From Akkermansia muciniphila (GTDB lineage: Bacteria > Verrucomicrobiota > Verrucomicrobiia > Limisphaerales > SIBE01), in the NCBI GenBank assembly GCA_945861765.1, contig CAMAWP010000003.1:1-64000 (forward strand): DNA of 64,000 nt. The letters are read 5' to 3'. The translations under genes were made by a program, and so were the position numbers. Shown in pieces: positions 17,595-18,246 of the stretch. Position 1 is the stretch's first letter. Every line of letters starts with the position of its first letter. Under the pieces are notes generated by a model. The model did not search any database, was not told the DNA's origin, and saw only the letters and a list, made by a program, of their open reading frames with translations.

Positions 17595-17952
17595 ACGGCG
17601 TGCAACCGACTTTGGCATCGAGCAATGAGAGCTTGTTTGAAAACTAAGAGAGGTCTTGCGGTGAGGAGTTTTGGTTTCGGCGGAGGCGGCGAAGCCGGAG
17701 ACAACATTTCGCAAAGCGAACGTTCCTCAACGAGAGGGTAAAGATTGTTTGCCGGCCGTTCCTCCGTGGCAAAATTTGCCTGCTCCTCGCCAAACCCGGT
17801 TAGCCGTGCCGCAGGAATGTCGGTTTTGGCTTGGAAAAGGCGTTCTTTACGTCCGGCAATGTATTGGTGTAAAACATGCTTTGCGTCCCAGGTAGCAGAG
17901 TAATGAAGCAAAGCAAATTGAAGCAATACTGAGCATCGATGCAATAGAATTT

Positions 17953-18246
17953 ATGGTCATCAATACAAATTCCACCGGAATGGTAAGCCCGAACAACCTG
18001 AACTCAGGTTCCGCCAACGCCGCCAAGGCAAGTCGCCAAACTGCCGTTCGCTCAGATGACACGGATATTACTGCCCGAAACGCGGAAGAAATATCCCATG
18101 TTGCCGTTCGCGAGATACTGGATTCGCGCGGTGCCGATGCGGCTACTGATTACGCCCGGATTCATATTTTGACAGACTCGAATACCGCGCTTCTGGTTCA
18201 AGCCAATTTGAATCCTCAGCATGTGCTTGATCTCCTTGCGGAGTAA
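17953..18246 (+). CDS. Small flagellin-like protein (D0-N plus D0-C like termini without central domain)
   Basis: 97 aa: N-term MVINTNSTGMVSPNNLNSGSANAAKASRQTA and C-term ADAATDYARIHILTDSNTALLVQANLNPQHVLDLLAE resemble flagellin termini. Confidence 0.6.
   Translation: MVINTNSTGMVSPNNLNSGSANAAKASRQTAVRSDDTDITARNAEEISHVAVREILDSRGADAATDYARIHILTDSNTALLVQANLNPQHVLDLLAE

Follow-up and report, generated by a model that had tools for sequence, protein, structure and literature searches.

Production of flagellin is restrained by a circuit of FliS, FliW and CsrA whose signal is flagellin itself. A 97-aa protein that carries the two ends of a flagellin with no body between them raises the question of whether it is the scrap of a deletion or a working small protein and, if the latter, what its ends would be kept for. 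In the present study, we followed up such a gene in a stretch of 64,000 nucleotides (the window; G000:C3:1-64000), for which the initial annotation had proposed either a deletion remnant or a genuine small protein in which D0 polymerisation helices are reused.

Results

The 97-aa ORF annotated at 17953-18246 on the plus strand was recovered with its exact translation, and the features of this gene, called here the mini-flagellin gene, are as follows.

17953..18246, plus strand: mini-flagellin ORF (P0001), encoding 97 aa
17953..18087, plus strand: residues 1-45, D0-N/spoke-like segment (MVINTN...NL..S...K.S...SDD..I..R), scoring 16.5 bits with a local N-terminal flagellin profile
18082..18237, plus strand: residues 44-95, Flagellin_C-like segment (I-D---A-------R--IL---------VQAN-----V--LL), Pfam PF00700, E=2.4e-4
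17865..17880, plus strand: sigma-54-type -24/-12 element TGGTGTAAAACATGCT (GG-N10-GC), starting 88 nt before the ATG

The draft genome to which the window belongs (G000) has 7.27 Mb, and a metagenome bin with the label Baikal-deep, 'Pedosphaera sp.', is its closest named relative; the host is a lake-dwelling Verrucomicrobia relative of the Pedosphaera type. The mini-flagellin gene lies outside any flagellar gene cluster, flanked by genes for an efflux-type membrane-fusion protein and an MsrB-type methionine sulfoxide reductase (both named by eye). The claim that the window holds no flagellar genes agrees with our searches for Flagellin_C, FliS, FliW, FlhA and sigma-54. No second Flagellin_C match was found on the window contig, and the FliS, FliW, FlhA and sigma-54 matches of the genome are all on other contigs. 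Flagellar export genes, which the initial annotation had suggested seeking elsewhere in the genome, are present there as FlhA together with other flagellar genes; the genome encodes sigma-54, FlhA, FliS, FliW and at least 11 full-length flagellins. Thirteen Flagellin_C matches over the cut-off were obtained in this genome, 12 of them in open frames of at least 242 aa (one cut by a contig end) and the last in a second short protein.

The C-terminal end of the window protein was matched by Pfam PF00700 Flagellin_C, residues 44-95 aligning with positions 35-86 of the 86 in the profile. This match (E=2.4e-4, 21.8 bits) is formally sub-threshold against the curated cut-off of 23; the ortholog in G003 is above it, with 25.0 bits. 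Matches to this end were also given by eight flagellin models of NCBIfam and in the PDB, where the top matches are flagellins (E=3.9e-5); the tail scores 45 bits against a local profile, a score that none of 300 shuffles reached. At the other end, Pfam Flagellin_N gave no match to the window protein, and residues 1-45 score 16.5 bits against an N-terminal profile built from 42 flagellins of the loci in this analysis, a score reached by 0/300 shuffles. The Flagellin_C match and the N-profile score together indicate that both ends are flagellin-derived, with the D1 core missing between them, as it is in all six orthologs. Hence, the C-terminal D0-C helix and the lack of a central domain were both borne out, whereas the N-terminal likeness is upheld by the local profile and not by Pfam; with the two HMMs proposed for the check, Flagellin_N is silent and Flagellin_C falls just under its cut-off. 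At the level of sequence, the architecture observed, two flagellin tips without the body, is confirmed as genuine.

Like bacterial flagellin (FliC/Hag; PF00669, PF00700), the mini-flagellin has a MVINTN-type start and a tail of the form R--IL------A-L-QAN--PQ-VL-LL, and the flagellin partners FliS, FliW and FlhA are present in its genome. Unlike flagellin, which has about 270-300 aa, it has 97 aa, no D1 core and no Pfam-recognised Flagellin_N, and is encoded outside the flagellar cluster. In addition, the AQAN of flagellin is VQAN in 6/6 mini-flagellins of the family. The AlphaFold model, made with a two-sequence alignment, did not give a confidently predicted fold (mean pLDDT 44).

In the GTDB family of the host, a short ortholog was found in six of eight genomes including that of the window (five of the seven others), and the six span three genera with the same architecture and no internal stops. 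Their lengths are 97 (G000), 97 (G001), 96 (G002), 103 (G003), 105 (G005) and 108 aa (G006), and identity to the window protein is 94% in G001, 53% in G002 and 29-36% in G003, G005 and G006. No ortholog was found in G004 or in G007, the latter 67% complete. As G004 does without it and has flagellar genes (FlhA, FliS and FliW), the mini-flagellin is dispensable. Against a family profile, the six orthologs give E values of 1e-37 to 1e-43, five of those six and the window protein having themselves built the profile, and ordinary flagellin tails give 5e-12 or weaker. A scan of genome contigs returned the near-identical ortholog alone. When 388 genomes of the phylum were searched with a profile at a cut-off of E 1e-9, no further full-length member was recognised among the matches listed; nearly all of those outside the order are in frames of at least 190 aa, and the matches listed include one 126-aa frame with a stop, in G448. 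In the open-access PMC literature, most subscription papers being outside its scope, we found no account of short or mini-flagellins in Verrucomicrobia.

Between G000 and G001, the mini-flagellin has dN=0.028 and dS=0.104 (6 and 7 differences, which are small counts), giving a dN/dS of about 0.27 against this nearest ortholog; the flanking msrB gene is similar, at 0.022/0.100. Residues 55-97 differ by one amino-acid change in this pair. Across the six orthologs, the invariant residues are M1, I3 and R42 only in the N-terminal part, and I55, D57, A61, R69, I72, L73, V82, Q83, A84, N85, V91, L94 and L95 in the C-terminal part. Against the local N profile, G000, G001, G002 and G006 show clear similarity to D0-N and G003 a weak one, and G005 scores no better than shuffled sequence; the N-terminal part of G003 and G005 has proline-rich stretches. 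Judged from its sequence, the mini-flagellin is a conserved gene and not deletion scrap. Conservation, length and dN/dS, the tests suggested at the outset, support the proposal of a real small protein. The reuse of D0 polymerisation helices appears doubtful, since the C-terminal part is kept in all orthologs but D0-N is recognisable in only some.

The promoter regions have an element in common. TGG-N9-TGCT, which has the GG-N10-GC layout of a sigma-54 promoter, stands before 6/6 mini-flagellin genes, starting 79-113 nt before the ATG. Its background in these loci is 1.0% of random 100-mers and 8 of 384 ORF upstream regions, a set that includes most of the mini-flagellin genes. The G003 element CTGGCATTCATGTTGCT is a good match to the full consensus (11/13), and those of genus g1, including that of the window, are poor ones (8/13). 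The same motif is found at one fixed place before fliW, the first gene of the fliW-csrA-flagellin operon, in 6/6 family genomes, and an NtrC-type activator gene adjoins fliD. We infer that the mini-flagellin gene belongs to a sigma-54 flagellar regulon. A further element of this type, before flagellin 1 of the fliW operon, was discounted because it is inside the csrA reading frame. No convincing sigma-28 promoter match was found before the window gene, and its start codon lacks the CsrA-type GGA hairpin that several flagellin genes in this genome have.

Furthermore, 138 fliW loci in the order were compared: 91 have a full-length flagellin after csrA, 21 have no recognisable flagellin within 700 nt, and in five (G036, G132, G133, G077 and G261) a frame of at most 150 aa with a flagellin tail is directly behind fliW-csrA. 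Four of these five short proteins, G261 being the exception, are over the Pfam Flagellin_C cut-off. The G036 protein passes it as well as matching Flagellin_N with 47 bits, and this intact N-terminal match makes it look like a young loss of the middle. FlhA had no match in the G036 genome (97% complete), though its fliW-csrA-mini arrangement is intact; FlhA is present in G132, G133 and G077. The short protein of G132 matches the profile of the window family from end to end (45.7 bits). Two more short proteins at the fliW-csrA position, L238 (G279) and L245 (G275), were set aside as too degenerate to claim, the G279 protein having no Pfam flagellin match. Loci of family f43, for example L160, L161 and L222, have fliW-csrA with no recognisable flagellin behind, in genomes that have FlhA.

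Discussion

The pattern of conservation directs attention to the chaperone FliS, which wraps the last 40 residues of flagellin, the D0-C tail, and whose contacts in Helicobacter pylori FlaB include Q501, N503, L512 and L513 (PMC7248283). In the mini-flagellin, Q83, N85, L94 and L95 have the same spacing as these residues and are invariant in seven sequences; every mini-flagellin has Q-A-N followed by an LL pair 9-10 residues past the N, and FliS is encoded in 8/8 genomes of the family. Flagellins conserve the FliS-contact residues for the packing of D0 as well, so that their retention alone is not proof of FliS binding. With the tail conserved and its D0-N partner helix decaying, however, the part under selection would be the chaperone-binding tail, and the conserved part appears to fit a FliS-binding tail better than a polymerisation module. 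For FliW, N-terminal fragments of Bacillus subtilis flagellin of 60 or 72 residues are bound, and FliW contacts the D1-C region too (PMC6070490); a literature search on Hag N255 and FliW found nothing.

The reading that we prefer, with confidence slightly below even, is that the mini-flagellin acts as a FliS-binding flagellin mimic of the flagellar regulon and not as a filament subunit. A flagellin would have lost its D1 core and everything outside it, so that what stayed is the beginning of D0-N together with the D1-C/D0-C tail. The resulting gene would share sigma-54 transcription with the flagellar regulon, and the tail of its product would bind FliS as the last 40 residues of flagellin do. 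The mini-flagellin could occupy FliS, and possibly, by its N-terminal end, FliW too, and so tune the timing of flagellin release or export; alternatively, it may itself be delivered to FlhA and secreted. Sigma-54 control, FliS binding, and regulation or export of the protein are steps that we infer; the data themselves show homology, conservation, purifying selection, a common promoter-type element, the presence of FliS, FliW, FlhA and sigma-54, and parallel D1-less flagellins after fliW-csrA.

A functional precedent, with no kinship claimed, is H. pylori HP1076, a FliS partner and co-chaperone that is small, resembles part of flagellin and competes with flagellin for FliS; RpoN (sigma-54)-dependent expression has been reported for it, and it is described as H. 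pylori-specific (PMC7248283). Unlike the mini-flagellin, HP1076 resembles the D1 domain in structure and not D0 in sequence. The name 'mini-flagellin' has also been given to EspA of the LEE type III system, a shortened flagellin relative that reuses the C-terminal flagellin coiled coil (PMC1084347). EspA, which polymerises, is thought to keep D1-C and lack D0, the reverse of the window protein. FlaC of Campylobacter jejuni, of about 250 aa, is not reduced to two ends as the mini-flagellin is. FlaC is described as a non-structural protein of flagellin type that is exported by way of the flagellum (PMC5466977).

The other explanations were weighed against the same evidence. A decaying flagellin pseudogene, left by an in-frame deletion, is a very remote prospect: these genomes have many flagellins, and internal deletions do occur, the G036 mini looking recent, but six orthologs of similar length in three genera, without stops, with dN/dS of about 0.27 and a common promoter-type element, contradict the deletion remnant of the initial annotation, which we reject on conservation and selection. 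Rod and hook axial proteins likewise use terminal D0-type helices, and the mini-flagellin might be a minor axial protein, a D0-only subunit secreted by the flagellar T3SS to a junction or the filament core. In G000-G002 and G006, the two flagellin ends can both be recognised, the start residues M1 and I3 are invariant, and FlhA and FliS are present. This is nevertheless unlikely, for G005 has not conserved the D0-N helix and G003 keeps a weak form of it, proline-rich stretches being present, and a D0 coiled coil is improbable where that helix is missing; moreover, the protein has no D1, the domain that carries most subunit contacts in the flagellar filament.

A role mainly in binding FliW, as a flagellin surrogate that would free CsrA independently of FliS and export, also seems rather doubtful. 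It draws on the five genomes with short flagellins in the flagellin position after fliW-csrA, on G036, which keeps fliW-csrA-mini where no FlhA was found, and on the FliW-binding B. subtilis fragments of 60 or 72 residues (PMC6070490). However, the window family conserves the C-terminal and not the N-terminal part, its gene is not beside fliW, the D1-C region contacted by FliW is mostly missing, and G036 is a single draft genome whose mini may be a fresh deletion. It is improbable that the flagellin ends were taken over for an unconnected function in an envelope system with a DUF218 (YdcF-type) membrane protein and its operon, which also encodes a cupredoxin-like protein, a HAMP/class III cyclase and a porin-like protein. 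The mini-flagellin gene is directly before the DUF218 gene (assigned by Pfam) on the same strand in G003, G005 and G006, and the DUF218 protein is present in 6/6 genomes with the mini-flagellin and 0/2 without; but one of those two genomes is 67% complete and co-occurrence over eight related genomes is weak, the DUF218 gene is on a different contig from the mini-flagellin in genus g1 (G000-G002), and in G000 and G001 its upstream region yielded no sigma-54-type element. The gene order DUF218, cupredoxin-like, HAMP/class III cyclase, porin-like is seen at L099:11605-16325 (G006:C229) and, in similar form, in L120 (G000:C108).

Taking the FliS-binding mimic together with the fliW-csrA survey, we tentatively suggest, at well under even confidence, that Pedosphaera-type Verrucomicrobia have repeatedly made D1-less flagellin regulators that keep the FliS (perhaps FliW) ends, placed after fliW-csrA or encoded by a sigma-54-driven gene of their own, as a dedicated decoy in the flagellin homeostasis circuit. 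If this is true, a natural, conserved flagellin consisting of the binding ends only would be a built-in competitor in the FliS/FliW/CsrA circuit, and an example of an abundant structural protein giving rise to a regulator. It would also account for short flagellin matches that annotation may drop as fragments.

Several hairpins were observed at other flagellin genes. In several of the G000:C27 flagellin genes (L002 and L003), the ribosome-binding region is overlapped by a GACAAAAGGAATTGTC hairpin that has GGA in its loop; these are candidate CsrA sites, and the flagellin GGA hairpins fold only modestly better than shuffles. The second short flagellin-like protein of the genome (G000:C227:8552-8932; L044:5553-5933, plus strand) has 126 aa, scores 42.9 bits with Flagellin_C, over the cut-off, and has relatives in G001:C40 and G002:C19. 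Its gene has a sigma-28-type promoter, TCAAGTTT-N11-GCCGATTC, and, immediately upstream of the start codon, a GACAAACGGATTTGTC hairpin whose loop contains GGA and which resembles those of the C27 flagellins. Hairpins of the same kind and sigma-28-type sites were also seen at the genes in L075 (G001:C116) and L082 (G007:C9), which encode flagellin-like proteins of about 280 aa; in these, D1 and the C-terminal part are ordinary, and the N-terminal end is no longer D0-N-like.
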